A DNA stretch of 64,000 nt from positions 80,171-144,170 of the forward strand of contig JOEL01000014.1 of assembly GCA_000720995.1 (NCBI GenBank), read 5' to 3'. The notes beneath the pieces are model-generated. The model did not search any database. It had not been told where the DNA came from and worked only from the letters and a program-made list of their open reading frames with translations. Shown in pieces: positions 1,180-16,968 of the stretch. Every line of letters starts with the position of its first letter. Positions within the stretch are counted from its first letter, which is position 1. This DNA is from Streptomyces celluloflavus. Lineage in GTDB: Bacteria > Actinomycetota > Actinomycetes > Streptomycetales > Streptomycetaceae. The position numbers were made by a program, and so were the translations under genes.

Positions 1180-1250
1180 TGCCGGGGGCGCGGACGATCT
1201 CCGTGCCCCCACCCGTGCCGCACCGTTCCGGAAGGGAAGGACCGTACACC

Positions 1251-1463: not shown

Positions 1464-1469
1464 CGGGCA

Positions 1470-1508: not shown

Positions 1509-1834
1509 GTCGCCATCTCAGGGCCCCGGTACGGGCTTACCGCCACCGCAAGGACTCCCCTCCGGCGGGACCGTCGACAGCCCACCCGTAGCCCCCGTAC
1601 ACCCCACCACCGGGCGAACCGCAGCCCCCGCCACCCCCATTCCCGGATGAACCGGACACCCGCCGAACCGTCTCGGCAACGTCCATCCCCCCGATGGGAA
1701 AGTCCATTGCCCCGCCGCGGCCACGGGGTGCAGCCTTCTTCCGCACTTCCACTCGCTCCACACAGCTCTCCAGAGATCACTGCGCACCCAGCACAGCTGT
1801 CCCTGAACCTCGCTGTACCGAGGAGGACCGAAGG
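1509..1834. other. upstream region of the GH84 gene
   Basis: About 325 bases without a convincing gene. Open frames here have no ribosome site and no recognisable motifs. The region should hold the GH84 promoter; I could not identify its boxes with confidence. The strong ribosome site GAGGAGG lies at the right end. Confidence 0.4.
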
Positions 1835-4501
1835 ATGCACCGTACGCGTACCGCGGCGGCCACCGCGTTCGCCCTGGCCCTGGCCGCGATCCCCCTGGCG
1901 GGGCCGCCGGCCGCCGCCGCGACCGCGGGCCCCGCCCGCGCCCCGGACAGACCGGCGGCCGCCACCCCGCTCTCCCCCACCCCCCGGTCCGTCCAGGCCC
2001 GGTCCGACCGGGTCACCGTCACTCCGTCCGTCACCGTCGTCGCGGACCCCAAGGCCGACGCGCCCGCCCTGGCGCTCGTCGAGAAGTCCCTCAAGGCGGC
2101 GGGCGCCGAGCGGATCGTCCGGTCCGCGCGGGCCGCCGCCGGCCGGCAGCTGACCGTCTACGTGGACGGCTCGGGCGCGGCCCGGGAGCTGAAGCGGCTG
2201 GGCGCGCGCGGCACCGACGGACTGCCCGCGGAGGGCTACGCGCTGGCCGTCGGCGATGGCCGGATCGCGCTGGCCGGCAAGGACGCCACCGGCACGTACT
2301 ACGCCGCCCAGTCGCTGCGGCAACTGCTGCCGCACCGCGACCGGCCCGGTGCCCGTATCCAGGGCACCGCCGTACGGGACTGGCCCGCCACCCCGCTGCG
2401 CGGCGTCATCGAGGGCTTCTACGGCACCCCCTGGTCGCACCAGGCCCGCCTGGACCAGCTCGACTTCTACGGCGAGCACAAGATGAACATCTACGTCTAC
2501 TCGCCCAAGGACGATGCGTATCTGCGGGCGAAGTGGCGCGACGCCTACCCCGCGGACCGGCTCGCCCAGTTGAAGGAGCTGGTGGACCGGGCGCGGGCCC
2601 GCCATGTGGAGTTCACCTACGCCCTCTCCCCCGGCCTGTCCGTCTGCTACAGCTCCGATGCGGACGTCGCCGCGCTGACGGCGAAGTTCCAGACGCTGTG
2701 GGACATCGGCGTCCGGACCTTCGCGGTGCCGCTGGACGACATCAGCTACACGAACTGGAACTGCACCGCGGACAAGGACCGGTTCGGGACCGGCGGCGGG
2801 GCGGCCGGTACCGCACAGGCGCACCTGCTCAACCGCGTCAACCAGGAGTTCATCGCCAAGCACCCGGGCGCCGAGCCGCTCCAGACCGTGCCGACCGAGT
2901 ACTACGACGTGCAGCCATCGCCGTACAAGCAGGCGCTGTCAACGCAGCTGGACAAGAACGTGCTGGTGGAGTGGACGGGTGTGGGTGTGGTCGCGCCGAC
3001 GATGTCCGTCGCCGAGGCGCAGCGGGCCCGGGAGGTCTTCGGGCATCCGATCCTCACCTGGGACAACTACCCGGTCAACGACTACGCGACCGACCGGCTG
3101 CTGCTCGGCCCGTTCAACGGGCGGGAGAAGGGGCTGCCCGGACAACTGGCGGGGATCACCGCGAACCCGATGATCCAGCCCGCCGCGTCCAAGATCGCGC
3201 TGCACACGGTCGCCGACTACGCCTGGAACGACCAGGCTTACGACGCGCGCGCCTCCTGGGGCGCGGCGATCGACGAACTGGCCGGCGGCGACGCCCGCAC
3301 CGCGCGGGCGCTCCGGGCCTTCGCGGACGCCAACTACTACTCGGTCCTCAACCCCCGGCAGTCGCCTGAACTGGCCGCCGCCGTCGACGCGTTCGGCAAG
3401 GACGGCGACGCGCGGCGGCTGGACGCGGCGCTGCGCACCGTCCAGGACGCGCCGGCGGTGCTGCGCGACCGGCTCACCGACCGGGGCTTCGTCCAGGACA
3501 GCGAGCCCTGGCTGGACGCGACGCACGCCTGGGGCACCGCGGCGCGTACGGCGCTGAAGCTGATCGAGGCGACCCGGGCGGGCGACGACGCGAAGGCGTG
3601 GCAGCTGCGCCAGCGCATACCCGAGTTGGTGCGGACCGCCAGGTCCTTCGTCTATGTCGATCTGAACGGCAAGAAGGTCCCGGTGCGGGTCGCCGACGGA
3701 GTGCTGGACACCTTCATCGAGGGCGCGCTCGCGGCGCATGACGCGGCGCTCGGGGTGACCGGCCGCCCCACGGCCTCGACCGATCTCGCCGCCTACCAGG
3801 ACAACACCGTCTCCCGGATGACCGACGGCGACGACGCCAGCTACTTCTGGAGCGGCGCCGCCCCGAAGGCCGGTTCCTATGTCGCGCTGGATCTGCACAC
3901 CGAGCGTCCGCTGGGCCGGATCACCCTCGCGATGGGCAAGAGCGGCAGCCCGGACGACTATCTCCACCACGGCGTTCTCGAATACTCCGCGGACGCCACG
4001 CACTGGCGGCAACTGGCCGCCTTCGACGACACGGCGGAGATCACGGTCGATCCGCCGGCCGACGCCGGAGCCCGGTATGTGCGGGCCCGCGCCACGCAGT
4101 CCCAGGACAACTGGCTGGCGGTACGGGAGTTCACGGTCGCCGGGTCGGACACGGTGACCGGCGGCCCGCCCGCGGCTGCGGGCAGCGCGCTCGGGGCGGC
4201 GGCGGACGGCGACCCGACGGCCGCCTACCGCGCGGCGCGGGCGGCGCAGTCCGGCGAGTCACTGGAGTTCACCCCGGCCACACCCCGCACCGCGCGGTCC
4301 GTGGTGGTACTCCGCCCGCAGGGCGCGCCGCCGAAAGCCGCCCGGGTCCAGGTCCGTACGGCCGGCACCTGGCGCACGCTCGGCACCCTGTCCGGCGCCT
4401 ACACCCGGCTCGCGACGGGCGGCGGCACCATCGAGGGCGTACGGCTGGTCTGGCGCACGGGGACGGCGGCCCCCGAGGTCAACGAGGTGATCCTGCACTG
4501 A
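1835..4501 (+). CDS. secreted GH84 beta-N-acetylglucosaminidase (hyaluronidase/O-GlcNAcase-like)
   Basis: 888 aa from ATG 1835, preceded by GAGGAGGACCGAAGG; the open frame continues upstream without a start that has a ribosome site. A signal peptide ending near AAAATA (about residue 31) implies secretion. Residues about 45-185 form the GH20b-like N-terminal domain. The GH84 TIM barrel begins at about residue 190 with GVIEGFYGTPWS. The paired catalytic aspartates are D301 and D302 in PLDDISY. Residues about 640-770 resemble an F5/8-type (CBM32) galactose-binding domain (LDLHTERPLGRI, then RYVRARATQSQDNWLAVREF). It probably removes GlcNAc from extracellular glycans such as hyaluronan, glycoproteins or chitin fragments. 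Monocistronic, with hairpins on both sides. Confidence 0.92.
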   Translation: MHRTRTAAATAFALALAAIPLAGPPAAAATAGPARAPDRPAAATPLSPTPRSVQARSDRVTVTPSVTVVADPKADAPALALVEKSLKAAGAERIVRSARAAAGRQLTVYVDGSGAARELKRLGARGTDGLPAEGYALAVGDGRIALAGKDATGTYYAAQSLRQLLPHRDRPGARIQGTAVRDWPATPLRGVIEGFYGTPWSHQARLDQLDFYGEHKMNIYVYSPKDDAYLRAKWRDAYPADRLAQLKELVDRARARHVEFTYALSPGLSVCYSSDADVAALTAKFQTLWDIGVRTFAVPLDDISYTNWNCTADKDRFGTGGGAAGTAQAHLLNRVNQEFIAKHPGAEPLQTVPTEYYDVQPSPYKQALSTQLDKNVLVEWTGVGVVAPTMSVAEAQRAREVFGHPILTWDNYPVNDYATDRLLLGPFNGREKGLPGQLAGITANPMIQPAASKIALHTVADYAWNDQAYDARASWGAAIDELAGGDARTARALRAFADANYYSVLNPRQSPELAAAVDAFGKDGDARRLDAALRTVQDAPAVLRDRLTDRGFVQDSEPWLDATHAWGTAARTALKLIEATRAGDDAKAWQLRQRIPELVRTARSFVYVDLNGKKVPVRVADGVLDTFIEGALAAHDAALGVTGRPTASTDLAAYQDNTVSRMTDGDDASYFWSGAAPKAGSYVALDLHTERPLGRITLAMGKSGSPDDYLHHGVLEYSADATHWRQLAAFDDTAEITVDPPADAGARYVRARATQSQDNWLAVREFTVAGSDTVTGGPPAAAGSALGAAADGDPTAAYRAARAAQSGESLEFTPATPRTARSVVVLRPQGAPPKAARVQVRTAGTWRTLGTLSGAYTRLATGGGTIEGVRLVWRTGTAAPEVNEVILH

Positions 4502-4505
4502 CCCG

Positions 4506-4529
4506 GGGCCGCGCGCAGGTGCGCGGCCC
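4506..4529 (+). terminator. hairpin terminator after the GH84 gene
   Basis: GGGCCGCGC (4506-4514) pairs with GCGCGGCCC (4521-4529) across a 6-base loop, 4 bases after the stop codon. Confidence 0.65.
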
Positions 4530-4714
4530 GCGTGGGCGGACACCGGCGGGGCCCGGCACTCACCGGCACCGGACCTCGCCCCGCCCGCCCCCTGAAGCGG
4601 TCGGAGCGCGGACCGTCCCTCCCCCGGAGCAACACAGGCCACCATGGGCCGGCTGTCCCTCGCATCAACGGTGGACCGGTCCCCGACCACGCATACGCCC
4701 TCAACCGCCCGTAC

Positions 4715-4891
4715 TCACGGCGCCCACTCCTCGGCGAGCAGGCCGAGAACGACCAGGTCGACGAAGGCCCCGTACACCCAGGCGGAACGCCGCAGAGTGC
4801 CCTCGACGGAAAATCCGGCCCTCGTCGCAGCCGTGATCATCGCGGTGTTGTCGGCGAGGGTCTCGATCTGCAGCCGGTGCAGGCCGCGTAC
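4715..4891 (-). pseudogene. C-terminal fragment of a GNAT acetyltransferase (RimJ/RimL type)
   Basis: Reading leftwards from 4891 the frame gives VRGLHRLQIETLADN, GFSVEGTLRRSAW and VVLGLLAEEW, then a TGA at 4715-4717. That is the last third of a RimJ/RimL-like N-acetyltransferase (about 58 residues). The acetyl-CoA-binding Q/RxxGxG/A segment and everything before it are absent. To the right the sequence switches abruptly to a phage terminase remnant on the other strand. The missing N-terminal part of exactly this family lies on the same strand at 13470-13705, so the two may be halves of one gene split by an insertion. Confidence 0.75.
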
Positions 4892-5853
4892 GGAGGCCGT
4901 GCTCGACGCGATCGTCGACCACAAACGCATTGCCGCTCCTGCCGGGTTCGGCGTCGGCAAGACCCATCTCGCCGTGCGGGCCGCCGTCTGGTGCACCAAC
5001 GTCCATCCGGTCGGCACCGCCTTGTGCATCACCACAGCGACGAGGTTTCGCCAGGTGCAGCGGCAGCTCTGGCCGCACATCCGCAAGGTGGTGCCGCGGG
5101 CCGGCCTGCCGGGCTGTTGCCGGCACGGTCCAGTACAAGATGCCCGACGCGTACGGCCAGGACGTTGTGGTCACGTACGGCTTCTCAGCGCCGGCCAACG
5201 ACGAGGTGGCGATGCAGGGCATCCATATACCTCACCTGCCGCTCATCGTGGACGAGGCGGGCGGTATCAACCCGTGATCGGCGCGGCACCAACAACCTGC
5301 TCACGGGCGGGCACGCAGTGATGCTCGCGATCGGCAGCCCTGCGATGGACGATCCCGTGTCCTGGTTCGAGGAGTTGTGCATCGAGAGCGAAGACCCGAG
5401 CGAGACGACGACCGTCACCATCCCCTCCCCCGACTCCCCAGCAATCGCCAAGGAGCGGACGCCGTACTGCGCGGACTGCACGGACTGCCCCGACGGCATC
5501 GCCCGGCACTCCCTCGCCGACCACATGCCGGACCAGGACTGGGTCGACCGCACCATCCGGTCGTACGGCGAAGACCACCTGTACGTGATCGCCAAGGTGT
5601 TCGCTCGGTTTCCTCGGGGCGGCGGCGAGGCGCCGAGTACACCGGGCGCGTGCCGGACTACGCGGAGCCGGACGCAGAGCCGCTGCGCTGGGAGCGCCTC
5701 AGCACCGTGTGCGGTTGCTCGGAGGAGGACCGGGCACCGCACGACATCACCCCGGAGACGGGCGACCCGCGCCTGTTCCCGACGAAGCCGCCGTTCCTGC
5801 CCGGCTGGCGCCGTCCGGCGAGCGACATCGGCCTGCAGCCGCCCGCCTGGTGA
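4888..5853 (+). pseudogene. decayed phage terminase large-subunit-like gene
   Basis: Pieces of one ATPase/nuclease can be read in order through three or more frames. About 4888-5110 carries AVLDAIVDHKRIAAP and a Walker A GFGVGKTH, then ALCITTATRFRQVQRQLW. A frameshift follows, then DVVVTYGFSAPAND and the Walker B-like LPLIVDEAGGI with a TGA at 5275. The next frame gives AVMLAIGSPAMDDPVSWFEE and PDQDWVDRTIRSYGEDHLYV, and a last frame ends at 5853. This order matches terminase-like DNA-packaging ATPases found in actinophages and their relics. No start codon with a ribosome site is left. It is therefore a prophage remnant, and it lies exactly at the left junction with the broken acetyltransferase. 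Confidence 0.7.
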
Positions 5854-6040
5854 GTGCGGCAAGGGAACCCAGGACCGTCACCGGGCCCGGCAGCGCTACC
5901 CTCCCGCCCGCGTTGGGAGCACTTCTCCTCTCCACCTGGTCCCACGGCTGCAGCCGGAGCGGTGCATCTCCGCCCGGGCGGAGGTGAACCGCCGAGGAGG
6001 GAGGGTACTGGCTGCGGACCCCGGTGCTCTCCACGCAGGC
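5854..6040. other. unassigned spacer with a 16-base palindrome
   Basis: No gene recognised between the terminase relic and the truncated end of the dihydrodipicolinate-synthase-like pseudogene. CTCCGCCCGGGCGGAG (5968-5983) is a perfect palindrome near the deletion end of that pseudogene. Confidence 0.4.
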
Positions 6041-6414
6041 GGTAGTGCTCCACGACCGCCGCCCGCTCCGCCCGGTAGGCGTTGGGCGGCGGCAGCAGCA
6101 CCGAGGTGGCGCCGGCCTTGGCTGCCTGCTTGGCCCAGCGGCGGGCCTCGAAGGCACCGTACGCGGCCACGCCCGGCATCACGCCGAAGCCGTCGGGGGC
6201 GGTGGACGGCGGTCTCGACGACGCGGGCGCGCTCCTCGGCGGTCAGCGTCTGGTACTCGCCCAGCGAGCCGTTGGGCGCCACGCCGTCACAGCCGCCGGC
6301 GGCCAGGAAGCGGACATGCTCGGCGAAGGCGTCGTAGTCGACCGACAGATCGTCGTGGAACGGCAGGGCCGTGGCGACGTGGACTCCGTGTCAGGGCCTC
6401 GCGGAGTTGGTCAT
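6040..6414 (-). pseudogene. dihydrodipicolinate synthase family gene, nonsense, frameshifted and truncated
   Basis: From ATG 6414, with AAGGAG in front of it, the frame reads MTNSARP and then hits a TGA as codon 8. The same frame continues as HGVHVATALPFHDDLSVDYD and GGCDGVAPNGSLGEYQTL, ending at ERARVVETAV. A one-base shift near 6220 moves to GFGVMPGVAAYGAFEARRW and GATSVLLPPPNAYRAERAAV, and similarity ends near 6040, before the Schiff-base lysine. This is the first 40 per cent of a DapA-family aldolase/dehydratase. Members next to LysR regulators often act on keto acids; one branch deaminates pyrroline-4-hydroxy-2-carboxylate in hydroxyproline breakdown. The substrate here is inference from nearby collagenase and racemase genes. 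Confidence 0.8.
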
Positions 6415-6611
6415 GCTGCAGCTCCTTGACTGGTGTGGGAAAGAAGGTAGTAGTGCAATGTCACACGCCATAGACCTGGAACCGGGCTGATGGCCCGATG
6501 CCGCGGATCGGGTAACGGCCGTGCTGCCGGCCCGCGTCGAACAGTGCCTCGTCCACCGGGACCATCGGACGTAAAGTTGGCACACTCCTGAGAGACCTGG
6601 AACGGGTGCTG

Positions 6612-7571
6612 ATGGAAATCGAACTGCGACACCTGCGGATTCTGTGCACGATCGCCGACACGCTGAGCCTCGGCCGGACGGCCGCCATCATGGGGTGCTC
6701 GCAGCCCGCCGTCAGCAGTCAACTGAAGCGCATCGAACGGCTTATGGGCGAGGACCTCTTCGTCCGGGGCAGTGCGGGGGTGACACCGACGCGCTTCGGG
6801 GTCGAGGTGGTGGTGCAGGCCCGCGAGGTGGTGGCGCTGGCGAACGCGATCGGGCACCGGTCCACCGCGAGCCGCCGCGGAGCTGATCGGGTGCTGCGGG
6901 TAGCCGCGACGAATACGCCCATCCTGCCGGGGCTCCTGCAGCGGGCGCGCACCGTCCTGCCGGCGCTGACCGCGCAGGTGAGCAGCGTGTACTCCTCGGC
7001 CGAGATCATCGGGCTGCTCGAGGACGACAAGCTGGACGTCGCCGTCGCAGTCGACTACCCCGGACGGGAGTTGGGGCATTCGGAAGCCGTGGCGCGCCGC
7101 GGCATCGTCACCGAGCCCAGCTTCGTGGCGCTGCCCGCCGACCACCCGGCGAGCGGGCAACTGGACGTGCCGCTGCTCGATCTGGCCGGGGACGCATGGT
7201 TCCTGACACCCGACGACGGTGCGGGCTGGCCCGGTGTCTGCTACGACGCCTTCCAGGCGGCCGGCTTCCGACCCGCCACCGTGCACGAGTACCTCGGTGA
7301 CCGGGACCAGTTGCAGCGGATGATCGCCGACGGGCTGGGGATCGCCGTCGTCCAGGCGACGTGCAAGCCGAACCCGGGTGTGGTCGTCAAGCCGCTGGCC
7401 GGCACGCCGCTGTGGTGCCGCTATGTGCTGGTGTGGCACAGGGAGCGGGTGTCCGATGAGGTCACGGAGGCGCTCTTCGGCGCGGCCCTGGCCGCCTACG
7501 AGGAACTCATCGCCCGGGCACCGCACTTTCGGGCGTGGGCAGCCCGCCACTACCCGGCCCCGCGGAGGTAG
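6612..7571 (+). CDS. LysR-family transcriptional regulator
   Basis: 319 aa from ATG 6612; a GTG at 6606 would add two residues and cannot be excluded. The N-terminal winged helix-turn-helix is clear: RHLRILCTIADTLSLGRTAA, CSQPAVSSQLKRIERLMG and LFVRGSAGVTPT. The rest is the periplasmic-binding-protein-like effector domain. It is divergent from the broken dihydrodipicolinate-synthase-like gene across about 200 bases, the standard LysR arrangement, so that gene was probably its target. The regulator itself appears intact although its partner is dead. A strong hairpin at 7609-7644 separates it from the convergent collagenase gene. Confidence 0.88.
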   Translation: MEIELRHLRILCTIADTLSLGRTAAIMGCSQPAVSSQLKRIERLMGEDLFVRGSAGVTPTRFGVEVVVQAREVVALANAIGHRSTASRRGADRVLRVAATNTPILPGLLQRARTVLPALTAQVSSVYSSAEIIGLLEDDKLDVAVAVDYPGRELGHSEAVARRGIVTEPSFVALPADHPASGQLDVPLLDLAGDAWFLTPDDGAGWPGVCYDAFQAAGFRPATVHEYLGDRDQLQRMIADGLGIAVVQATCKPNPGVVVKPLAGTPLWCRYVLVWHRERVSDEVTEALFGAALAAYEELIARAPHFRAWAARHYPAPRR

Positions 7572-7608
7572 GCGTACGGGGCTTGTACGACACCGGCACA
7601 GCCCGAGG

Positions 7609-7644
7609 CCGTGGCCCGGCCGACCGGAGTCGGCCGGGCCACGG
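7609..7644. terminator. bidirectional terminator between LysR and collagenase genes
   Basis: Perfect 15-base arms CCGTGGCCCGGCCGA (7609-7623) and TCGGCCGGGCCACGG (7630-7644) with a 6-base loop lie between two convergent genes. Confidence 0.85.
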
Positions 7645-7680
7645 TCCCGGGTCATGCAACCACTGCCGTTCAGGAGGGGA

Positions 7681-9996
7681 TCAGAACGACGTGGTGACGG
7701 TGACCCCGCTGAAGTCGGTCACCGCGTACAGGCTGATGTACCGGTAGCCCGCCTCGGTGTTGTTGACGGTGATGCTCTCAGCGTTGCCGGAGTTGGTGGA
7801 CTTCTGGGTGAAGGCGGACGGGCCGGCCCATGTCGTCGGGTCGTAGTAGAGGTCAGCATTGCCGCTGCCGCCGCTGGTAGTGACCTTCAGAGTGGTGTTG
7901 CCGGCCGGCAGCCACACCCACAGGTAGTCGGTGTCACCGGCGACCCGGGACTGGTCCGACCGGAAGCAGTTCTTCCCCATCGCCTGCGTGTTGGTGTCGG
8001 CGCAGGCCGTGCGGTTGCCGCTGCCACCGCCCAGGGTGTCGAGCCAGGCGTCGAAGTCGGCGTCGTAGCTGGTGCCGATGTTGTTGTAGACGGCGTAGGC
8101 ACCCTGGTAGTCCCCGGTCCGCATCTTGGCCAGCATGGCCTGGATCTGGTCCGGGTGTTTCTCGGTCATGTACCGGACGGCCAGGTATCCCCACGGGTAG
8201 GTGCGGGTCTCGTCGTCGATGACGTAGGTGTTCTGGAAGAGCTGGCTGAGCTTGTAGGTGTGTTTGCCCGCCTCGGTCAGCGCGCCGTCGTCGGTGAGGT
8301 TGCGGTAGGAGTAGGAGACGTACTCCGCTTGGCCCTCTATCCACCAGACGTCCGGGACGGTGATCTGGGTGCCGAAGTCGCCCTTCATGTCGTAGATGGA
8401 CTGCTGGACGTGCGCGAACTCATGGTTGAGGTTCCACGCGTTGGCCGGGAAGCCGTTGTCGGTCGGCCACTGGTAGAGGATGGAGTAGGCGATGTTGTCG
8501 GGGTCGGTCGGCGTGCCGGTCAGCGTCTCGCCGCCGTTGTTGGTGTCATTGCCGAAGATCGCCCACGAGTAGGTCGTGTAGTCGGTCCTGCTCCCGAAGA
8601 TGACCATCTTCAGGTTGAAGTACTCACCGGGGATCGGCGTGCTGGTCTTGACCTGATTCTGGTAGAACGCGACCTCATTCGACAGGCTCGTGCAGACGTC
8701 GGACTGCTCCTTCGCTGTCAGCGCCTGCGCCATGACGGTGAAGTTGCTGCAGGCGTTGTTGATCGGCAGCGCGGCCGCGGTGAGTTGCTTCGTCAGGTCG
8801 CAGACGCCGTAGTAGGAGCACTGGTCCGGGTCCCCGACGCTAGCCCGGTAGGCGACGTGCACCCACAGGTTGTCCGTGGCACCGGTGATGGACGAGCCGT
8901 CCAGCAGACCCTTGATGAGCGGGCGGATCTTGCTCTGCAGGGCCGGTATCTGGATGAGGTTGGCCAGGTCGTTGCCTGCGTTCGAGTCGAGGACGTCGTT
9001 GACCCCGCCGAGCAGGTCGCGGTGGCCGAGGGTGAAGTTGTAGAGCGTGTCGGCGATACCGGGTTTCGCGGTGATCGCGGTGACGAAGTCCGACAGCCAC
9101 GGGCCGCGCCACAGCGGGGTGTAGATCGCGTTCAGCGCCCGGTCCATCTCCGGGACGGCGTCCCACGAACTGCTGGTGTAGGCGTTGAGGTAGCGGCCGT
9201 AGACGTCCAGGTAGTCGGCCTGCACCTGCGCGCTGTCGGTGAGGACGAACGCCTGCTCCAGCACACCGCCGTTGCCCGCGCTGACGTCATTCGCGTGACT
9301 GCTGGCGAACAGCGTGTTGAACCCGTTCTCGATGGCGCTGCGGAGCGAGGGGTCGTACGTGCCGACGTCCTGGGGGTTGCCGTACTGCACGTAGTAACCG
9401 GCACGCATGAAGTACATCAGCTCGTACAGGCCGCCGGAGTCGTCACCGGTGTAGGAGCCTGCCGCTCCGGCGACGCCGTTCGCCACCGCGAGCATCTGGG
9501 ACTGATTGAACACAGCGTGCGCGTCCGGACCCGTCAGGCTGAACAGCGGGTTGATGCAGGAGCTCCAGTCCACCGTCTTGATGTACGACACCAGGTCGCT
9601 GCCGGACCGGCCCGAGAAGTCCGACGTGGTGCACGACGTGACGGCGGCAGGCCGGGCGGCACCGGCCGCGTTGAGTGGCGCGTGTGCTGACAGGTGCGGC
9701 TTGGACGGCTTGGCCGAACCCAGGGCAGCCGGCGCCCCGCGAAGTTTCGCGGGCAACGGCTTGGCGCTGGTGGCGGCGGCTTGGGACTGAGCGGTCTCGG
9801 GTCCGGTGGGCGTGACCTTCCCGTGCTGTTTGGCAGCCTGCACGGCTGCGGAGGGTACCGACACGGCCGGTGGTGAGGCATGCCTCGTGTTGCTGGTTGC
9901 CGCGGCCGCCTGAGTGTTCGTCAGGCCGGCGACGACGAGCCCTCCGGCCGCCAGACCTGCGGCCAGAACTCTGGGCAGGATTGATCGACAGTGCAT
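7681..9996 (-). CDS. secreted M9 family collagenase
   Basis: 771 aa from ATG 9996, preceded by GGAG 8 bases upstream. A signal peptide (MHCRSILPRVLAAGLAAGG) and an Ala/Pro-rich pro-region lead to the M9N-type activator domain (residues about 165-450). The gluzincin peptidase core has the zinc motif HEFAH (H525, E526, H529) and the third ligand E558 in EGQAEY. A pre-peptidase C-terminal (PPC) domain follows a Cys-containing linker, from about residue 665 (DYLWVWLPAGNTTLKV). Expected to digest native collagen outside the cell and release Gly/Pro/hydroxyproline peptides. Around it lie stubs of a proline racemase, aminopeptidase P and a DapA-family gene, which could have used those products. Confidence 0.92.
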   Translation of the reverse strand: MHCRSILPRVLAAGLAAGGLVVAGLTNTQAAAATSNTRHASPPAVSVPSAAVQAAKQHGKVTPTGPETAQSQAAATSAKPLPAKLRGAPAALGSAKPSKPHLSAHAPLNAAGAARPAAVTSCTTSDFSGRSGSDLVSYIKTVDWSSCINPLFSLTGPDAHAVFNQSQMLAVANGVAGAAGSYTGDDSGGLYELMYFMRAGYYVQYGNPQDVGTYDPSLRSAIENGFNTLFASSHANDVSAGNGGVLEQAFVLTDSAQVQADYLDVYGRYLNAYTSSSWDAVPEMDRALNAIYTPLWRGPWLSDFVTAITAKPGIADTLYNFTLGHRDLLGGVNDVLDSNAGNDLANLIQIPALQSKIRPLIKGLLDGSSITGATDNLWVHVAYRASVGDPDQCSYYGVCDLTKQLTAAALPINNACSNFTVMAQALTAKEQSDVCTSLSNEVAFYQNQVKTSTPIPGEYFNLKMVIFGSRTDYTTYSWAIFGNDTNNGGETLTGTPTDPDNIAYSILYQWPTDNGFPANAWNLNHEFAHVQQSIYDMKGDFGTQITVPDVWWIEGQAEYVSYSYRNLTDDGALTEAGKHTYKLSQLFQNTYVIDDETRTYPWGYLAVRYMTEKHPDQIQAMLAKMRTGDYQGAYAVYNNIGTSYDADFDAWLDTLGGGSGNRTACADTNTQAMGKNCFRSDQSRVAGDTDYLWVWLPAGNTTLKVTTSGGSGNADLYYDPTTWAGPSAFTQKSTNSGNAESITVNNTEAGYRYISLYAVTDFSGVTVTTSF

Positions 9997-10162
9997 CGCA
10001 TCTCCAGTGGGGGGGAGCGAAGGGGAAGCCGCCCGAGGAAGCGAGCAGCGGTGTGTAACATTGCACTGGGTGAAGTCGTGAGCAATACTCCGGGACCCAG
10101 CACTGTTTCCAGTTGCCCCATAACACCGGCGCACAGGGTGTCAACGCCCGCCTGGAAGTGAG
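9997..10162. other. collagenase upstream region
   Basis: 166 bases between the collagenase start and the racemase stub that starts on the plus strand. I found no clear promoter boxes. The region is moderately AT-richer than its surroundings. Confidence 0.35.
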
Positions 10163-10258
10163 ATGCGGACGACCAGGGCACAGCCGATCGAGACGATCGA
10201 CTGGCACACCGGCGGCGAACCGTTCCGGATCGTCGTGGACGGCCCGGCCAAGGTGACG
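10163..10258 (+). pseudogene. N-terminal stub of a proline racemase / hydroxyproline epimerase family gene
   Basis: ATG 10163 follows GGAAG. The frame reads MRTTRAQPIETIDWHTGGEP and then FRIVVDGPAKV before entering a 7-base tandem repeat and a TGA. DWHTGGEPFRIV is the N-terminal signature of the proline racemase superfamily, which includes 4-hydroxyproline 2-epimerase and 3-hydroxyproline dehydratase. The two catalytic cysteines lie far downstream in intact members and are missing, so this is a relic. An unexpressed stub next to a collagenase fits loss of a hydroxyproline pathway. Confidence 0.65.
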
Positions 10259-10286
10259 GGTGACGGGTGACGGGTGACGGGTGACG
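10253..10286. repeat. 7-base tandem repeat GTGACGG, four full copies plus a partial one
   Basis: GTGACGG occurs at 10253-10259, 10260-10266, 10267-10273 and 10274-10280, followed by GTGACG. It sits exactly where the racemase reading frame breaks. A 7-base unit is not a multiple of three, so slippage here would shift the frame. Confidence 0.9.
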
Positions 10287-10677
10287 TGCCCGCCTACATC
10301 CACGCGCACAGCGTCGAACACCGCGCACACGGTCGGCACATGCCGGTGCACCGTCGTTCCGCGCGACGCGTTCCTGCCCGGATTCGTGCTGAGATGACCG
10401 AACTCCTCCACGCGGAGCTGGTCTTCGCCTTGGGGCCGGTAGCCGCCGTCCGGGCCGTCCGCCGACCTGCTCACCGCGAAGGCCGCCCTGCGAGGCGACC
10501 GTCCGACGGTCGTCAGGACCACCGGGGTGGGATGTGGGAGGACCTGGTGGTCGCCGTCGCGGCGTACCAGGCAGGGAGAGGCGCACCAGCAGGGAGCACA
10601 GGCGGAGCGCCCCCTGTTTCCGTACCATGTGAAATAGTACTGTCGCCGCACAGGGTTCCCGACGGACGGAGCACACG
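10287..10677. other. unassigned stretch between racemase stub and aminopeptidase P stub
   Basis: About 390 bases with open frames on both strands but no recognisable domain and no coherent start. I see no conserved continuation of the racemase. The right end, from about 10610, should carry the promoter of the aminopeptidase P fragment. Confidence 0.4.
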
Positions 10678-11262
10678 GTGGTGCGAGACGACATGCAGCA
10701 GCGCGAGGGCGCGAGCCACGACCGCGCGGTGCCGCCAACGCTGGCGGAATGCTTCACGCAAGGGTGGGCCGAGGAGACTCCGGCGGTGCCGGTACTGCCC
10801 GGAGCGGCGTACGCGGCCAAACGTCGCGCGCTGCTGTCCGCGCGCTTCCCCGGGGAGCGAATCGTGATCTCGGCCGGCGGCCTGAAGGTCCGGAGCAACG
10901 ACTTCGACTACCCCTTCCGGCCGCACTCCGCGTTCCTCCACCTCACCGCGGACGAGGGCGGCGCCGCCGCCCCGGACAGCGTCCTCGTCCTGGAGCCGAC
11001 GGGCACCGGCCACGACGCCACGGTGTTCGTCCGGCCGCGCTCCCCGCGCGACGGCGGGCCGAACGGCACCGAGTTCTACCGCGACCGCCGCTACGGCGAG
11101 TTCTGGACCGGCCGGCGCCGCACCCTGGCGGAGACCTCCGACGCCCTGGGCCTTACAGCTCTCCCCCGCGATGGCCTCGCACGCGCCCTCGCCTCGGACG
11201 TCCCGACCCGGGTGGTGCGCGGCCAGGACCCGGTGGTCGACGCGGCGGCGCCGCCGGCCGCC
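10678..11262 (+). pseudogene. aminopeptidase P N-terminal domain, truncated
   Basis: From GTG 10678, with ACGGAG upstream, about 195 residues match the AMP_N (creatinase-like) N-terminal domain of Xaa-Pro aminopeptidase P: YAAKRRALLSARFPGERIVI, SNDFDYPFRPHSAFLHLT, VLVLEPTGTG and GEFWTGRRRTLAE. The metal-binding pita-bread domain that carries catalysis is absent. At about 11262 the sequence changes to a thymidylate kinase body in another frame. Aminopeptidase P removes residues in front of proline and would suit collagen peptides. It is a clean two-gene junction rather than gradual decay, which suggests a deletion or recombination event. Confidence 0.78.
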
Positions 11263-11266
11263 GGGG

Positions 11267-11780
11267 CCGAGGCATCGCCGTACACCGAACCGTGGAGCCC
11301 TCCACCAGCGAGCTCGGCACCTTCACCCGCCAGAACGCCAACACCATCCATGGGCACGCTCTGGCCTGCCTGGTCGCGGCGGACCGGTACGCGCACATCG
11401 AACACGAGATCAAGCCGTCGCTCCACGCCGGCGACACGGTCATCTGTGATCGCTACCTCGCCTCGACGCTGGTCTTGCAGCGGCTCGACGGCGTGCCGCT
11501 GGAGTTCCTGCTCGACCTGAACGCGGACATCCTGATGCCCGACCTGGCGGTGATCCTCACCGCGTCGCCCGGCCTCATCGCCCACCGGATAGCCGAGCGC
11601 GGAATCCGCCACCGATTCCACCTCGACCCCACCATGCCCAGCCGCGAGGTCGACCTCTACGCCGAGACCGCCCTCACCCTCACCGCCAAGAACGTGAAGG
11701 TACTGGTGCTCGACAGCAGCAATGCCACGCCGTCGGAGCTCGCGGCCGAAATCGCCGACACGCTCCCCGACCCTCGATAG
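11267..11780 (+). pseudogene. thymidylate-kinase-like protein lacking its P-loop
   Basis: The frame ending at 11780 reads GIAVHRTVEPSTSELGTF, HGHALACLVAADRYAH, DTVICDRYLASTLVLQRLDG, then LNADILMPDLAVILTAS. These are the thymidylate kinase regions after the Walker A: the TEPS segment, the AADR motif and the DRY motif. The first 25 or so residues, with the GxxGxGKS/T loop, are missing; the upstream sequence belongs to aminopeptidase P. Without the P-loop it cannot bind ATP normally. I treat it as a pseudogene, though the body is well preserved and ends at its natural stop. Confidence 0.72.
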
Positions 11781-11819
11781 CGTCGGCAACCTCACCGAAG
11801 CCGACAACCCCCAGGGATC

Positions 11820-12260
11820 ATGAACCCGGAACCCGCACAACCCGTCATCGACACACACGTCATCCTCCGCGACGGGGACAAGATTCTCTTCTCACAGCGT
11901 GGCGGCCCGTACGGCCACGGGCGGTGGCACATGCCCTCGGGCAAGCTCGACAAAGGCGAGCCCCTGACCGTCGGCGCCGCCCGCGAACTGTACGAGGAAA
12001 CCGGCATCACGGCCGACCCGGCTCACCTGCGCCTCGTCCAGGTCGTACACCACCGGCAAGACGCGGAAATGGAACGAATCGGCTTCTTCTTCGAGGCCAC
12101 CGAATGGCAAGGACACCCGGTCAACAAGGAACCCGAGAAGTGCCGCGCCCTCGGATGGTTCACCGTGCACGAACTGCCCGACGACATCATCGAATACCCC
12201 GCGGCCGGCTTGAACGGCTACCTCCGGACCACGGGTCCTCTCACTGAGCACGCCTGGTAG
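11820..12260 (+). CDS. NUDIX hydrolase
   Basis: 146 aa from ATG 11820; the upstream CAGGGA is a weak ribosome site. The NUDIX box GX5EX7REUXEEXGU is complete at residues 41-63: GKLDKGEPLT, then GAARELYEETGI. The domain is compact, as in MutT/ADP-ribose pyrophosphatase-type housecleaning enzymes that hydrolyse nucleoside diphosphates linked to another moiety. Substrate not predictable. It is one of the few intact genes in the disrupted region, 40 bases after the headless thymidylate kinase and followed by an ABC-transporter remnant and a MazG-like gene. The nucleotide theme of the three suggests that they were once a unit. Confidence 0.88.
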   Translation: MNPEPAQPVIDTHVILRDGDKILFSQRGGPYGHGRWHMPSGKLDKGEPLTVGAARELYEETGITADPAHLRLVQVVHHRQDAEMERIGFFFEATEWQGHPVNKEPEKCRALGWFTVHELPDDIIEYPAAGLNGYLRTTGPLTEHAW

Positions 12261-12339
12261 CCGCGGCACGAGGACCACGTCCGGGGCGTGGCTCAATCGC
12301 CCGCCCCGGACTTCTTCATCGGATGAGCCGAGCCCCCGG

Positions 12340-12557
12340 GTGGACCCCGGCGGAGAAGGCCAGATCTTCCTTGAGACAGAGCGCATCGCCGCCGAGCGCA
12401 TGACGATCGACGTCACGCACCAGCTGGAGAACATCCGTCTCGCCGGCCGAATCCTCGCTATGCGTGACGCCCGCATTATCGAGCAGGTGGATACAACGAA
12501 CTGGCCCATGCGGGCGGCTTGTTCGCTGAGATCGTGGCCCCCGTCAAGGACCGGTAG
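12340..12557 (+). pseudogene. C-terminal remnant of an ABC transporter ATP-binding domain
   Basis: About 70 codons show the end of an ABC nucleotide-binding domain: RMTIDVTHQLENIRLAGRIL, with the H-loop histidine after T, then AMRDARIIEQ. One base is off after IIEQ, and the next frame gives GYNELAHAGGLFAEIVAP and a TAG at 12555. Compare the usual ITHRL-x-ADRI-V-G-x-I-E-x-G-x-H-x-EL. Walker A, the signature motif and Walker B are absent. It is a relic only. Confidence 0.65.
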
Positions 12558-12663
12558 GCAGCCGGTGTCCTCACGCAGCCAAACGACCGGCCACTCCCCG
12601 ATGACGCTCACGTTCCCCCTGAGCGCTTGAACCCCGTCCGTACGAAACAGAATCGAGACACAC

Positions 12664-12999
12664 GTGACTGATACCTGGCAGACGATTGCCCGCCTTGCCG
12701 GCCGCCTGGAGGAACACTCCACGCTCCCTCGCGAACAGCGCATCCTTCTGCAACTGCTGAAGATCCAGGAGGAGGCCGGCGAGGTCGCCGAGGCGGTCAT
12801 CGGAGCCATGGGGCAGAACCCTCGCAAAGGTCACTCGCACACCTGGAAGGACGTCGAGGCCGAGATCTGCGATGTCATCGTCACCGGCATGGTCGCCTTG
12901 ACCCGCATGAACCCCGAGGCCGCGACCGTCTTCCAACGTCACATGGAGGGCCTCGTCGCGCGGGACCTGGACCAAGCCGAGGGCGCCGCTGCCCAGTGA
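12664..12999 (+). CDS. MazG-like nucleotide pyrophosphohydrolase
   Basis: 111 aa from GTG 12664. The all-alpha MazG-like fold is indicated by EEAGEVAEAV (residues 36-45), the EExxE metal motif, and later EAEICDVIV, the second acidic motif ExxD. Such proteins hydrolyse nucleoside triphosphates to monophosphates and usually serve pool sanitation. The length fits the short single-domain type. It lies about 100 bases after the ABC remnant. The nearby NUDIX hydrolase and thymidylate kinase body are also nucleotide enzymes. Confidence 0.82.
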   Translation: MTDTWQTIARLAGRLEEHSTLPREQRILLQLLKIQEEAGEVAEAVIGAMGQNPRKGHSHTWKDVEAEICDVIVTGMVALTRMNPEAATVFQRHMEGLVARDLDQAEGAAAQ

Positions 13000-13469
13000 A
13001 CCGGCTCGCACAATCGGCCAAGAGTGATCACGGTTGGGGCGGATGTAACAGATCACCGCTCCACGACGTTCCGAACCGCGAAACGGGGTTGACCTTCGTG
13101 CCAACCCCACTCACAGCCGAGGAATGGGTGACAACTGCTACCGCTCCCCTCTCACCGGCAGCAGGACGGGCCTTCTGTCAGGAACCCCCGTTCCCGTCAC
13201 GGCCCGCCTCGGCGCCACAGGCCCCGGTGGCCGACTACGCGCTCACCGGCTCGTACGGCCTGATCTTCTTCACCCGCACGATCACCTCGCCCGCAGCGGA
13301 GTCCTGAAATCCGGCGCGGATCGCGTCGACGCTCGGGCCCTGGTCTCCCACCGAACGGCGGCGGACCGGGACGCGGTTCCCGAGGTGTGCACGCGACACC
13401 AATCGGGCGCCGTACCCATCGTGCGCGTCGTGAGTACACCGCCTGAGCCCCCCTTGCCGCGAATCATCG
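13000..13469. other. unassigned stretch at the right edge of the disrupted region
   Basis: About 470 bases without a recognisable gene. On the minus strand the frame of the acetyltransferase fragment continues to a stop at 13235, ending GEVIVRVKKIRPYEPVSA. That tail does not look like any acetyltransferase and may be foreign sequence fused at the junction near 13470. Confidence 0.45.
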
Positions 13470-13705
13470 CCCGCGAAGTTGCCGGCCAGCTCCTGCGACG
13501 CCAGCTCCACCACCGAGGAATACGCCCGCCGGTCCGACGGCACCGGCACCGCGGCGGGAGACTCCGCCGCGTCCGGCGGGAGGGGCCGCCAGGGCTCGGA
13601 GCCGGCGCGCGACCGCGTCGCCACGTCCTCGTACAACTCGGCCTGGAAAACGGGGACATCACTGTCCCACCGAGTCCGCAGTGCGACCTTCTCGCCTCGT
13701 ATCAT
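13470..13705 (-). pseudogene. N-terminal fragment of a GNAT acetyltransferase (RimJ/RimL type)
   Basis: ATG 13705 follows AAGGGCGC. The first 78 residues are a clear RimJ/RimL-type start: MIRGEKVALRTRWDSDVPVF, AELYEDVATRSR, EPWRPLPP and YSSVVELASQELAG. Similarity stops at about 13470; the acetyl-CoA-binding loop and the C-terminal strand are missing, and the frame goes on with unrelated residues to 13235. The C-terminal third of this same family lies on the same strand at 4715-4891. If both come from one gene, about 45 codons are missing and 8.6 kb was inserted. Confidence 0.75.
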
Positions 13706-13819
13706 GCGCCCTTGCTATCCCACCCGGCACAGTCGATCAGGAGACCGGGTCGGCCGGACCGCCTGCCTGTGCCCGGCCTGATGGCGAACCCTCAATCCTG
13801 GCCCCGACCGGTGCGCGGG

Positions 13820-14497
13820 TCAGCTCGCCGTCCCGTCGAGGAGGGGCTTGAGTTTGGCCACGAGGGTGCCGGCCGAGACGATACGGGGGATCTGCTCACC
13901 TTCCGGCGGCGCGAGGTTCGGGCAGGATTCGCTGTCGGACGCATCGCCCTTGAGCTTGAAGCTCTGCAACTGGCGGCCGGTGTCCGCCGTCCGGACGGTG
14001 ACCTGATAGGACACGTCGACGAGGAGCCGAAGGCTCATGTTGTATCCGCCAGGTTTCGCGTACATGCACCGGCCCGTGGTCGCCGTGGAGTGGCCGGGCA
14101 ACGGCGCCAGGCAGATGACGAGTTGGGCGACGGACCCGCCTGCCTTCGCGGTCTGCGATGCCCACCGTGGCGGCAGGTGGATATAGGCCGGCGTCGCGAG
14201 GTCGGGGGTGTCCAACTGGATGACGTCCGCCGGGTGCGGCCCCGGTCCCTGGTAGTGGCCCTGAGGGTCGCTCGGCACCTTGCCCAGGCACACGTTCTGC
14301 GGAGTGGCAGCCGGTGAACTCGCCTCCGCGGACGGGGCAGGAGCCGAAACGGTACGGGCAGGAGTACTGGGCGGAGCCGTCGGCCCGGCTTGATCGCCCC
14401 CGGCGCGGCCGCATCCGGCGAGCGCCGTGAGCACAACGGCAACTCCGACTCCCGCACACATCCGCACGCCGCGCCGTCGCCTGTCCCGCTCCCGCAC
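13820..14497 (-). CDS. putative secreted lipoprotein
   Basis: 225 aa. The N-terminus is strongly basic (RERDRRRRGVR), followed by a hydrophobic core and a lipobox LTALAGC, so the cysteine at about residue 29 should be lipidated and the protein anchored outside the membrane. A flexible Pro/Ala/Ser linker of about 45 residues follows. The remaining domain of about 150 residues has four cysteines (NVCLG, VICLAP, GRCMY, SESCPN), which could form two disulfides. I do not recognise the family. A second in-frame ATG 11 codons in is an alternative start. It stands alone between the acetyltransferase fragment and the nucleotidyltransferase gene. Confidence 0.75.
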   Translation of the reverse strand: MRERDRRRRGVRMCAGVGVAVVLTALAGCGRAGGDQAGPTAPPSTPARTVSAPAPSAEASSPAATPQNVCLGKVPSDPQGHYQGPGPHPADVIQLDTPDLATPAYIHLPPRWASQTAKAGGSVAQLVICLAPLPGHSTATTGRCMYAKPGGYNMSLRLLVDVSYQVTVRTADTGRQLQSFKLKGDASDSESCPNLAPPEGEQIPRIVSAGTLVAKLKPLLDGTAS

Positions 14498-14664
14498 TCT
14501 CGCCCCCTGGCATGTCCCCGATGATTGTCGCGATCAAGTCTGCCCCACGAGGACGGCGGGTTCCAGGGCTACCGTTCGAATGCCATCCACACCTGGCAGC
14601 GGCGCATCATCGGCCACACCAGGGGCCTGCGGGCGACGGCGGACGGATCGGACCGCTTGACGAA

Positions 14665-15390
14665 TCAGGGGCGCCAGCGGTGCGAGTGGCCTTCCCTCAG
14701 CGGCCCGCCGAGCAGGTCGAGCACGTGCTCGGCGGCGGCCGCCAACGGGGCGGGGTCGGCGTGTTCGGCCACCGCTTGATGGCCGTCCAGCAGGGCCCTG
14801 CCCCGTACCGGGTCCGCGCTCAGCAGTCTGCGGGGCAGCCACTTGCCGATGCCTGTCCAGGCGTTGTGGTGCGCGGTGAGCAGGTGTGTCGCCTCGCGCA
14901 GGGTGAAGTCGGCGAGGGAGAGCTGTTCGTACCGATCGGCCGGCGGGGTGTCGATCAGGTCGTCCATGAAGCAGGTGAGGCCGTAGCGTCCACGTTCCCA
15001 TTCCGCCGGGGTGAGCGGGGGCGGGCCGGCCGCCAGCACCGCTCGGGCCCGATCGCACGTACGGGAGAGATGACCGTGGGGGTCCATCAAGGGCAGCCCC
15101 TGGTCATAGATGAACAGGACCGTGCCGCGACGGCGGGCTCTGTCCCACGCGAAGAATTCCGGTATGTCCGCGAGGGTGTTCAGGAACAGCTCGGCCAGAA
15201 GGCCCTCGTGGCGTATCACCTCGCGACGGCTGGTGTCCGAGTCCGGCAGGAGGACGGCCACGTCGAGATCGCTCTTCGCAGTGGCCCGCCCCTGGGCGGC
15301 CGAGCCTCCCAGCAGGGCTCCCAGGGCGTGCGGGAAGAGGGTCGTGACCAAGCGCAGAGCCTGGGCGGCAGGGTTTTCCTGATCATTCAT
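14665..15390 (-). CDS. nucleotidyltransferase-domain protein (MNT/aminoglycoside adenylyltransferase type)
   Basis: 241 aa. The DNA-polymerase-beta-like nucleotidyltransferase motif is at residues 28-45: GGSAAQGRATAKSDLDVAVL, where D41 and D43 would bind Mg. The C-terminal half is helical, with HLLTAHHNAWTGIGKWLPRR, like the HEPN or aminoglycoside-adenylyltransferase C-terminal bundle. It could modify a protein partner (as in MNT-HEPN toxin pairs) or a small molecule; neither is shown. No separate HEPN gene is adjacent, but the helical part could play that role internally. It is followed upstream by an APH-fold gene on the same strand. Confidence 0.75.
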   Translation of the reverse strand: MNDQENPAAQALRLVTTLFPHALGALLGGSAAQGRATAKSDLDVAVLLPDSDTSRREVIRHEGLLAELFLNTLADIPEFFAWDRARRRGTVLFIYDQGLPLMDPHGHLSRTCDRARAVLAAGPPPLTPAEWERGRYGLTCFMDDLIDTPPADRYEQLSLADFTLREATHLLTAHHNAWTGIGKWLPRRLLSADPVRGRALLDGHQAVAEHADPAPLAAAAEHVLDLLGGPLREGHSHRWRP

Positions 15391-15682
15391 GGCCGGTCAT
15401 CGTGCCAGCCCGGGGATGCGTTCGTCCGAGTTCGGGGTCCCTACCTTGTTCCCTGGTTCAGGGAAGCCTGCCTGGCGTGGCCGATGCTCGTCACCGCCCG
15501 GGAGTTCCTGCCACCGCACCGCGTCTCCGCAGCAACGTCGCAGCAACGTCGCCGGTTCCCCGTAAAGTCAAGGCATTTCCGACCTTCGCCGTCACAGCGG
15601 ATCAAAGCCGCGAACGCCCGTATCCGGCGGCCGGACGAGAAGTACGGCGGCGCCGCTCCGCGTTGCCCGGTGCCTCCGCGGG
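15391..15682. other. intergenic
   Basis: Nearly 300 bases between the nucleotidyltransferase start and the APH-fold gene stop. I see no gene or strong structure. Confidence 0.4.
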
Positions 15683-16675
15683 CTACGTCAACGGCAGAAG
15701 CGCCAGTGCCTCATTCATGTTGTGCTCGGCGATCCCTCGCATGCTCGCCCGGTCGGGGAAGTCACCGTCGAGGAGACGCAGTGGACCGGCTACCAGCGAC
15801 AGACGCATCGCGAGCATGTAGAGGTCGAGCCGCCGCGGATCGAGACCGGGCCGGGCCAGTGCGGTGTACCGCTCGCCGAAGCGGAGTTGGAGGAAGACGT
15901 GCTCCCACTCGACGTCGAAGTACATCAGATCTTCGATGTCGATCAGGACGGGGTGGCCGTCCGCGTCGACCAGGACGTGGTCGGGTCCGAGTTCTCCGTG
16001 GATCAGTCCGTATTCCGTGCGCGGGCTCACGCGATCGGCCAGTTCCCGCAGACGGTCGCGGAACGCGGCGTCGGCTCTCGCGATCCTGTCCTCGCGCCCC
16101 GCCGCCTCATCGAGGTCCCGCAGGGCGCGGTCGAGGACCCGTCGCTCGCACGGGACCTCGGACGCGGAACCGCCCCGGTCCAGCAGGTCCACCTTGCCGT
16201 AGTGCCGGGCCCGGTGCCGGTGCATCACCTCAAGCATCCGGGCGAGGTCACCCAGAGCACCCGCGGCACGCGCAGGGTCGGTTGCGAGGAGGGCTTCGAG
16301 CGTGCCGCCGGAGACATCCTCGACCACGGCGACGTCCGCCGGATAGCGGCGCCTGCTGTCATCCGCCAGGAGTACCCGTGGAACCCGTGCCCCGACGTCG
16401 TCCAAGCACCGCTGCGCGGCCAGGAACGGGACCAGCCCGGAGGCGGGCGCGAACGGGTCAGCCGGATCGGCCTCTCGCGCGCCCGGCCAGAAGTTCTCAG
16501 CCGCCGCCCAGCTGTAGACGATCACGCTCGACGTGTGGGTCCCCTCAAGGCGGACCCGGTAGACCCCCTTCTTGCTTCCCCCGCGCAACCGGTCCACCGC
16601 GACAACGCGGCATCCGGCTCCCAGTGCGTCACGCACGAGCCCCGACAGGTCCTGGATGTCCGTGAATTGCCGCAT
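15683..16675 (-). CDS. aminoglycoside-phosphotransferase-fold kinase
   Basis: 330 aa. A protein-kinase-like APH fold: an N-lobe with RLRGGSKKGVYRVRLEG, a hinge region, and the C-lobe catalytic stretch LIHGELGPDHVLVD, followed by PVLIDIEDLMYFDVEWEHVF, which carries the metal-binding aspartate. The canonical HGDxxxxN loop reads HGELGPDH, so both the base Asp and the Asn are replaced. As I recall, this variant is common in a Streptomyces subfamily, so it is probably not a lesion of this copy. The substrate is unknown; drug, sugar or metabolite phosphorylation are all possible. Confidence 0.8.
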   Translation of the reverse strand: MRQFTDIQDLSGLVRDALGAGCRVVAVDRLRGGSKKGVYRVRLEGTHTSSVIVYSWAAAENFWPGAREADPADPFAPASGLVPFLAAQRCLDDVGARVPRVLLADDSRRRYPADVAVVEDVSGGTLEALLATDPARAAGALGDLARMLEVMHRHRARHYGKVDLLDRGGSASEVPCERRVLDRALRDLDEAAGREDRIARADAAFRDRLRELADRVSPRTEYGLIHGELGPDHVLVDADGHPVLIDIEDLMYFDVEWEHVFLQLRFGERYTALARPGLDPRRLDLYMLAMRLSLVAGPLRLLDGDFPDRASMRGIAEHNMNEALALLPLT

Positions 16676-16728
16676 CCGCAGAACCTACTGAAGACGGCGC
16701 GCGCACATGCCATGGGATACCTCCTCCG

Positions 16729-16968
16729 CTACGTATCATCGCCGCCCCTGCCCCCACTCTCGTCGAGCAGGCCCAGAGCCGAGCAGAGGGAGACGGAGAG
16801 GGTCATCCATACGACGAACGCCCCGCCGCCGTAGAGCACCGCGCGGGGCACGCTGCCGTCCGCTGCCCACGACAGCACACCGGCGATGACGGCGACCAGC
16901 AGGGAGAGGGTGATTGCCAGGGCGACGAGCAAGATCCGCGTCGAAAGTCCGGAGCGCACGGCCGGCAT
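16729..16968 (-). CDS. small two-helix membrane protein
   Basis: 79 aa from ATG 16968, with GAAGGATG just upstream. Two hydrophobic segments (about residues 12-33 and 42-66) and an acidic tail GGRGGDDT. No family recognised. Gene structure is supported by the start site and by membrane topology only. Confidence 0.55.
   Translation of the reverse strand: MPAVRSGLSTRILLVALAITLSLLVAVIAGVLSWAADGSVPRAVLYGGGAFVVWMTLSVSLCSALGLLDESGGRGGDDT

Follow-up and report, generated by a model that had tools for sequence, protein, structure and literature searches.

It is common to find genes that have been interrupted, phages in decay, and accessory blocks. Here we analyzed a stretch of 64,000 nucleotides of Streptomyces celluloflavus (assembly GCA_000720995.1, contig JOEL01000014.1, positions 80,171 to 144,170; hereafter, the window), in which a gene for a GNAT acetyltransferase of the RimJ/RimL type is split in two by DNA with phage genes at both edges and a chromosomal-type segment, carrying an open collagenase-LysR gene pair, in the middle. 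All coordinates are those of the 64-kb window, G-codes refer to other Streptomyces genomes, and L-codes refer to retrieved loci.

The phage genes resemble those of Streptomyces phage Gilgamesh (MN234216), whose 129-kb genome has ParA- and ParB-like genes in its annotation. Streptomyces plasmid records with a terminase match are similar to this phage (7/10 are 125-133 kb in size). Pieces of the terminase, NUDIX, and gp44 genes (recognized by sequence) and the gp45 gene (recognized by position) are common to the window, Gilgamesh, and these plasmids, all in the same order. Unlike Gilgamesh, the window keeps only about 3 kb, frameshifted and truncated. A literature search under Gilgamesh combined with "Streptomyces phage" gave no papers, and the papers listed on Streptomyces phage-plasmids dealt, by their titles and the beginning of their abstracts, with other topics.

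Some Streptomyces phages have been reported to transduce. Tidjani et al. 2019 (PMC6722414) call transducing phages elusive in the genus and, together with a 2021 paper on subtelomeres (PMC8627663), show that indels are frequent and lie for the most part in the chromosome arms. The small indels between sympatric Streptomyces in the 2019 study are like the locus described here in being lineage-specific blocks with shared neighbors; beyond the blocks as presented there, the internal structure is here resolved into phage and chromosomal pieces. In Streptomyces ambofaciens, Hoff et al. 2018 (PMC5869714) report five insertions, from 30 bp to 18.8 kb, at sites where a break was healed, all made of endogenous DNA, and they speculate that the same route might admit DNA of foreign origin. 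Our locus is like these end-joining scars in its inserted DNA, which there lies at break-healing sites and measures 30 bp to 18.8 kb. It is unlike them, as described in that paper, in that they hold DNA of the same genome after an induced break, whereas here we find at least two kinds of foreign DNA and infer end joining.

The two parts of the GNAT gene lie on the minus strand: the C-terminal part comprises 58 codons and the stop (4715-4891), and the N-terminal part comprises 75 codons (13481-13705). A preliminary description of this DNA, made from the letters alone, had read 13470-13705 and 4715-4891 as the beginning and the end of one protein, in the order and strand of a single gene with its middle codons absent. 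Comparison with other genomes bears this out. A single intact gene of 176 amino acids in G353 (L066) holds the counterparts of both parts: L066:7351-7534 presented 87.6% nucleotide identity to window 4709-4893 (C part), and L066:7662-7903 presented 80.7% to 13481-13722 (N part). Both halves also align to the gene in G367 (L067), with nucleotide identities of 88.7% over 4722-4905 and 79.3% over 13481-13750.

We retrieved 61 candidate loci for the GNAT gene, with at least five genes represented twice and a few distant paralogues among them; 51/61 gave a match and 40/61 spanned the gene. Among the 40 spanning loci, L066 and L067 ranked at the top for both parts (0.73 and 0.72 for the N part, 0.88 and 0.86 for the C part), and the identities of the N part and the C part covaried (Spearman 0.76). 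The halves did not match different paralogues best, and no retrieved locus carried them as separate genes. This confirms that both fragments are the complementary ends of one GNAT gene. The genus-wide searches, from which most of these loci came, scored only two to three candidates per genome, so GNAT genes closer than L066 and L067 may exist elsewhere.

Between the two parts, 42-43 codons (about 120 bp) are lost. With its middle codons gone and its halves 8.6 kb apart, the site holds no complete, enzyme-encoding GNAT gene. Relocation of the middle within the genome was rejected, as its residues were not found elsewhere in the own genome with 11/11 candidates scored (best E-value 0.04, 43% identity over 30 residues). 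Nor did the 18/18 candidates scored there for the C part yield a second copy of it (next best 39-42%).

The DNA inserted in the GNAT gene (about 4896-13485) has Gilgamesh-type phage DNA at both edges, of which roughly 3 kb is left, all on the plus strand. At the left edge, adjoining the GNAT C part, lies an internal fragment of the phage terminase large subunit (terL) gene (4896-5626), corresponding to residues ~82-331 of the 585 of Gilgamesh gp1 and spread over three frames by two frameshifts; the preliminary description had rightly placed a terminase relic there. Its homologues are full-length in G085 (83% DNA identity), G035 (82% DNA identity), and phage Gilgamesh (71%). Next to it, a 90-bp stretch (5629-5718) presented 79% identity to DNA that lies 1.1 kb farther along the phage region of G035.

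At the right edge, a dTMP kinase gene without its 5' end (11277-11780, first 22 profile positions absent) is followed by a NUDIX hydrolase gene of 146 amino acids (11820-12260; phage SF3; 43% to Gilgamesh gp43). Then come an ABC transporter ATPase gene, of which a frameshifted tail is left, and a MazG-like gene (12321-13004), both named after plasmid annotations; for the latter, the Pfam MazG match was below cut-off. The phage gp44 region (13036-13229) has residues 1-22 recognizable at 13128-13193 (E-value 3e-4). Finally, the first part of a small gene of membrane type (13389-13485; 89% to G090, 82% to G035) adjoins the GNAT N part, and its G035 counterpart lies directly upstream of the portal gene, as gp45 does in Gilgamesh. 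No good match was found for 13230-13377 or for 5719-6038, where a plasmid search of 5600-6060 gave weak matches near 5946-6051 only.

The ABC-MazG pieces are also found upstream of gp44 in G085 and in a second relic within the own genome, on contig C6. In that relic (C6:93620-94245, L110), the ABC-MazG piece, 88% identical to 12360-12774, is joined to part of gp44, and it was shortened differently from the relic in the window.

In Gilgamesh, the gene order is gp1 terminase, gp42 thymidylate kinase, gp43 NUDIX, gp44, gp45 membrane protein, and gp46 portal. The window displays terminase, dTMP kinase, NUDIX, ABC tail and MazG-like gene, gp44 start, and the start of the gene in gp45 position, in phage order and strand; among these, terL, NUDIX, and the gp44 start were recognized by protein and the gp45-position gene by DNA. 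The same order spans about 34 kb in G085 (contig C68: terL at 54.8 kb, ABC at 23.0 kb, gp44 at 21.6 kb, portal at 20.7 kb, with a gp45-position gene between the last two) and about 38 kb in G035 (contig C2: terL at 251.6 kb, gp44 at 288.4 kb, portal at 289.3 kb, preceded by a gp45-position gene). On the far side of terL, both genomes carry genes like Gilgamesh gp134 and gp137, and G035 also carries genes like gp155 and gp156. Since gp134- and gp137-like genes flank terL on that side, neither breakpoint in the window is a natural phage end. Both phage breakpoints fall within genes. When we searched 62 Gilgamesh proteins (of 156 annotated features), including both integrases, the portal, and the major capsid protein, against the whole window, terL and NUDIX alone matched at an E-value of 1e-4, and gp44 reached 3e-4 in a search of the block. 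These 62 proteins revealed no portal, capsid, tail, or integrase genes of Gilgamesh type in the window.

The identity of the edges also bears on whether the two GNAT parts could be scraps of the same gene, captured independently into a heap of such scraps. The block is indeed a mosaic of truncated genes, and the homology of the GNAT flanks extends 6 bp beyond the stop codon on one side and 45 bp ahead of the start codon on the other. However, the order, strand, non-overlap, and shared best matches of the parts agree with one GNAT copy, and the DNA between them has both edges from one phage type and in phage order. We thus regard independent capture as very improbable.

Our preferred reading, which we hold to be probable, is that the GNAT gene was broken by non-site-specific joining of Gilgamesh-type phage DNA, whose interior was replaced, and that decay followed. 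The preliminary description had proposed insertion of an element into the gene and then decay. A single gene interrupted by foreign DNA is supported; the bounds given for the insertion are not, and neither a native intact gene at the junction nor flanking direct repeats above chance were found. At 4894/13482 and at the outer edges, the longest direct repeats that could represent an attachment (att) core or a target-site duplication were of 6-7 bases, which is at chance level, so no repeats of a site-specific element were found at the ends. No transposase or integrase gene was found either, and both negatives are of limited sensitivity. The absence of repeats above chance and of such genes, together with phage breakpoints inside genes, makes illegitimate joining more likely than a clean site-specific insertion. 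A Ku gene is present in the own genome. We also considered a circle opened inside the GNAT gene and rejected it, because it predicts the N part on the left and the C part on the right, the reverse of what is observed.

The main alternative is that a complete temperate phage used its integrase to enter an att site in the GNAT gene and that deletions then removed the structural genes, both att ends, and the GNAT middle, with the collagenase segment arriving separately. It agrees with the simplest history of the preliminary description, Gilgamesh has two annotated tyrosine integrase genes, and G035 carries related phage genes within an 873-kb contig. However, neither Gilgamesh integrase matches the window, no att-like repeat was found at the junctions, and terL and portal are interior to the phage in relatives. 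Moreover, two separate deletions are needed, each ending inside the ~120 missing GNAT bases. Since both would have to stop within this short interval, we consider integrase-mediated insertion the less likely history, though one that deserves to be kept in mind.

Several observations weigh against non-site-specific joining of DNA from one Gilgamesh-type phage. The gene at 13389-13485 has no sequence match to Gilgamesh gp45 and bears this name by position alone. Gilgamesh gp42 did not match the dTMP kinase of the window, and the dTMP kinase-NUDIX stretch is closer to phage SF3 (72% over 11352-12260) and to plasmid copies than to Gilgamesh; in G035, the pair lies in the same phage stretch but inverted relative to the window. 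The ABC-MazG piece presented 79% identity to copies in G348, G390, and G023 versus 69% to the phage copy in G085, and no Gilgamesh-like genes were found within 10 kb around the copies in the former three genomes (17 proteins searched). With these two pieces nearer to other copies, two phages may have contributed to the phage part. Besides, no retrieved locus carries a phage piece inside an otherwise intact GNAT gene, so no intermediate was found, and the nearest sources are 7-20% or more diverged, which makes microhomology or added bases unreadable at the joints.

The middle of the insert matches other Streptomyces chromosomal loci and not the phage. The segment at 6039-11271 (5.2 kb) has collinear counterparts on the chromosomes of G358 and G259 and, starting at 6579, of G327. 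Identities are 91%, 93%, and 87% over three pieces in G358, 84-92% in G259, and 85-86% in G327. The segment is thus like these collagenase-LysR loci in gene order and in 84-93% nucleotide identity over 6039-11271; unlike the G358 locus, it has its outer genes cut and two internal stretches missing, at 6563/6564 and at 10266/10319. At its left end lies a truncated gene of the DHDPS family (6039-6563, minus strand; 91% to G358; Pfam PF00701, E-value 6e-6), and at its right end an aminopeptidase P gene cut after 198 codons (10678-11271, plus strand), whose counterpart in G358 is an open reading frame (ORF) of 480 amino acids. Between them, an open LysR-family regulator gene (6606-7571, plus strand) encodes 321 amino acids (HTH_1, E-value 3e-14; 93% amino acid identity to G358), and an open collagenase gene (7681-10134, minus strand) encodes 817 amino acids with M9_N, M9, and PPC domains and a HEFAH motif. 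The collagenase start looks signal-like, as judged by eye only, and the collagenase region (6564-10266) presented 93% nucleotide identity to G358. With these two open frames, the earlier view that everything between the GNAT parts is decayed does not hold. Silent and replacing codon changes on the window branch (13/8 in the collagenase gene, 6/5 in the LysR gene, and 2/4 in the aminopeptidase part) are too few to judge selection; this count covers these three genes, the terminase and dTMP kinase rows having been left out for broken or wrong frames.

The left flank of the block (1-4720) is 70-76% identical to G358 and G259 versus 77-86% to the clade relatives G348, G390, and G191. With 87-93% to G358, against 70-76% for the flank, the segment stands out, which fits a horizontal origin. 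In the search for the collagenase locus, one candidate was scored in G348 and one in G390, so the clade may have a similar locus of its own. One tentative reading is that a Gilgamesh-type phage or phage-plasmid acquired the 5.2-kb segment from the chromosome of another Streptomyces and brought it to this site, which would explain its place between phage pieces and would make it a footprint of the transfer of a whole host gene by phage. If so, the broken GNAT gene might mark the capture of recombinant phage DNA by illegitimate joining, a scenario that we see as possible rather than probable. The segment may have come with the phage or later than it.

The DNA absent from relatives extends beyond the GNAT parts, from 4502 to about 17362 (12.9 kb), and not from 4891 to 13470 as initially described. 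To its left lies a NAGidase gene (1694-4501, plus strand; Pfam PF07555, E-value 2e-117), collinear in relatives although shorter or absent in many of them, and to its right a gene of the TENA/THI-4 family (17410-18087, plus strand). A search with the TENA-like protein retrieved 76 loci, of which 75 were compared (L217 was excluded); with L125-L127, 78 loci were examined in all. Among named relatives, S. piniterrae, S. sioyaensis, S. kronopolitis, and S. chattanoogensis gave the best matches to this protein. Among the 75, 21 carried both flanks on the same strand, 2 had a left-flank match on the other strand only, and 52 had no left-flank match. The gap between the flanks was 59-354 bp in 20/21 of the loci with both on one strand. 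It was 82-113 bp in 3/3 of the relatives represented by L125-L127: in G390 and G348, it separates the NAGidase gene (to 4501) from the TENA-like gene (17410), and in G191 it follows the earlier part of the NAGidase gene (to 3745).

None of the stretches retrieved from the 78 loci contained any sequence of the block at an E-value of 1e-5. In many loci, the left-flank match stops at about 3740 or about 1465, reflecting a shorter or different left neighbor, and the block is missing there too. Because the flanks of the relatives are joined by a short gap without the block, 4502 to about 17362 is a single lineage-specific block. The exception among the 21 loci, S. inhibens, has a gap of 3008 bp filled with different DNA, that is, another 3.0-kb insert between the same two neighbors (L149:4935-7942). 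Given this insert, the NAGidase/TENA-like intergenic site may take up DNA repeatedly. Nearby, a second lineage-specific stretch (18088-19646) is missing in some relatives, such as G390 and G348, in which its own neighbors are both present.

An intact GNAT gene at the junction in genomes without the block had been expected. We found no relative with an uninterrupted GNAT gene there among the loci compared, and a close GNAT homologue is missing from G390, G348, and G191, where the best of all candidates, each of them scored, reached 30-36% identity. As these three relatives lack it, the GNAT gene is itself apparently a newcomer in the clade; among the eight genomes of that search, G239 and G064 carry a homologue at 55-56%.

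To the right of the GNAT N part, three further genes lie on the minus strand. The first encodes a protein of 225 amino acids with no assigned function (13820-14497) and seems rare, with matches at 34-50% identity in 3/198 other Streptomyces genomes (14 candidates scored per genome). The others are a gene with a nucleotidyltransferase domain (14665-15390), with similar copies elsewhere in relatives and on plasmids, and an APH-family phosphotransferase gene (15683-16675), with 88-90% identity in G370 and G169. These two genes (14665-16675) are adjacent, and similar copies occur on large Streptomyces plasmids or in other genomes. We considered whether the genes at 13820-17362 were the native surroundings of the GNAT gene and rejected this, as L066 and L067 had no DNA match outside the gene.

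A 57-bp stretch (14565-14621) is 83% identical to the interior of a plasmid-borne Streptomyces transposase gene of the IS5 family and is possibly an insertion sequence relic. Pfam scans detected no transposase, which is a weak negative, as the APH gene detected by the ORF scan had escaped the six-frame scans. No inverted repeat linked the block ends among the 25 longest of 155 pairs. A Tn3-type transposon at the right edge was discarded: the plasmid match at 16728-17146 is labeled DUF4158 but overlaps the gene so named by only 9 bases, and Pfam gave no significant hit for this stretch.

A mosaic of this kind could also be produced by an assembly error that joined unrelated contigs. The genome is a draft of 193 contigs, and the copy number of the pieces within it rests on two candidates scored per search. 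Against this, only one second copy was seen (of 12360-12774), which leaves the other junctions without a known repeat, and the frameshifts and deletions within the pieces agree with decay. Misassembly therefore seems highly unlikely to us.

Under illegitimate joining of phage DNA, the locus would have developed as follows. A newcomer GNAT gene would have sat between the NAGidase and the TENA-like genes until Gilgamesh-type phage DNA, presumably a single fragment behind both edges, joined into it in a non-site-specific manner, with the loss of about 120 bp of the target. The likely route would be double-strand-break repair by end joining, and the main alternative route would be prophage insertion with end deletions reaching into the GNAT gene. 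The phage stretch from the terminase to the gene before the portal, which covers 29-37 kb in relatives, would have collapsed to roughly 3 kb at the edges, its interior being replaced by the 5.2-kb chromosomal-type piece with the open collagenase-LysR pair. Frameshifts and deletions would have come afterwards.

The event is of an ordinary kind with an instructive structure: phage DNA that frames an open chromosomal gene within a broken gene is informative, although not new in kind. One locus shows how a Streptomyces accessory block can be assembled: a gene that is apparently a recent gain was disrupted by phage DNA, which carried, or later received, an open chromosomal gene matching another species. 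If the segment did travel in the phage, it would be physical evidence of phage-borne gene transfer in a genus in which conjugation is usually regarded as the main route. The site is thus a genetic scar that hints at how collagenase-type genes can travel.

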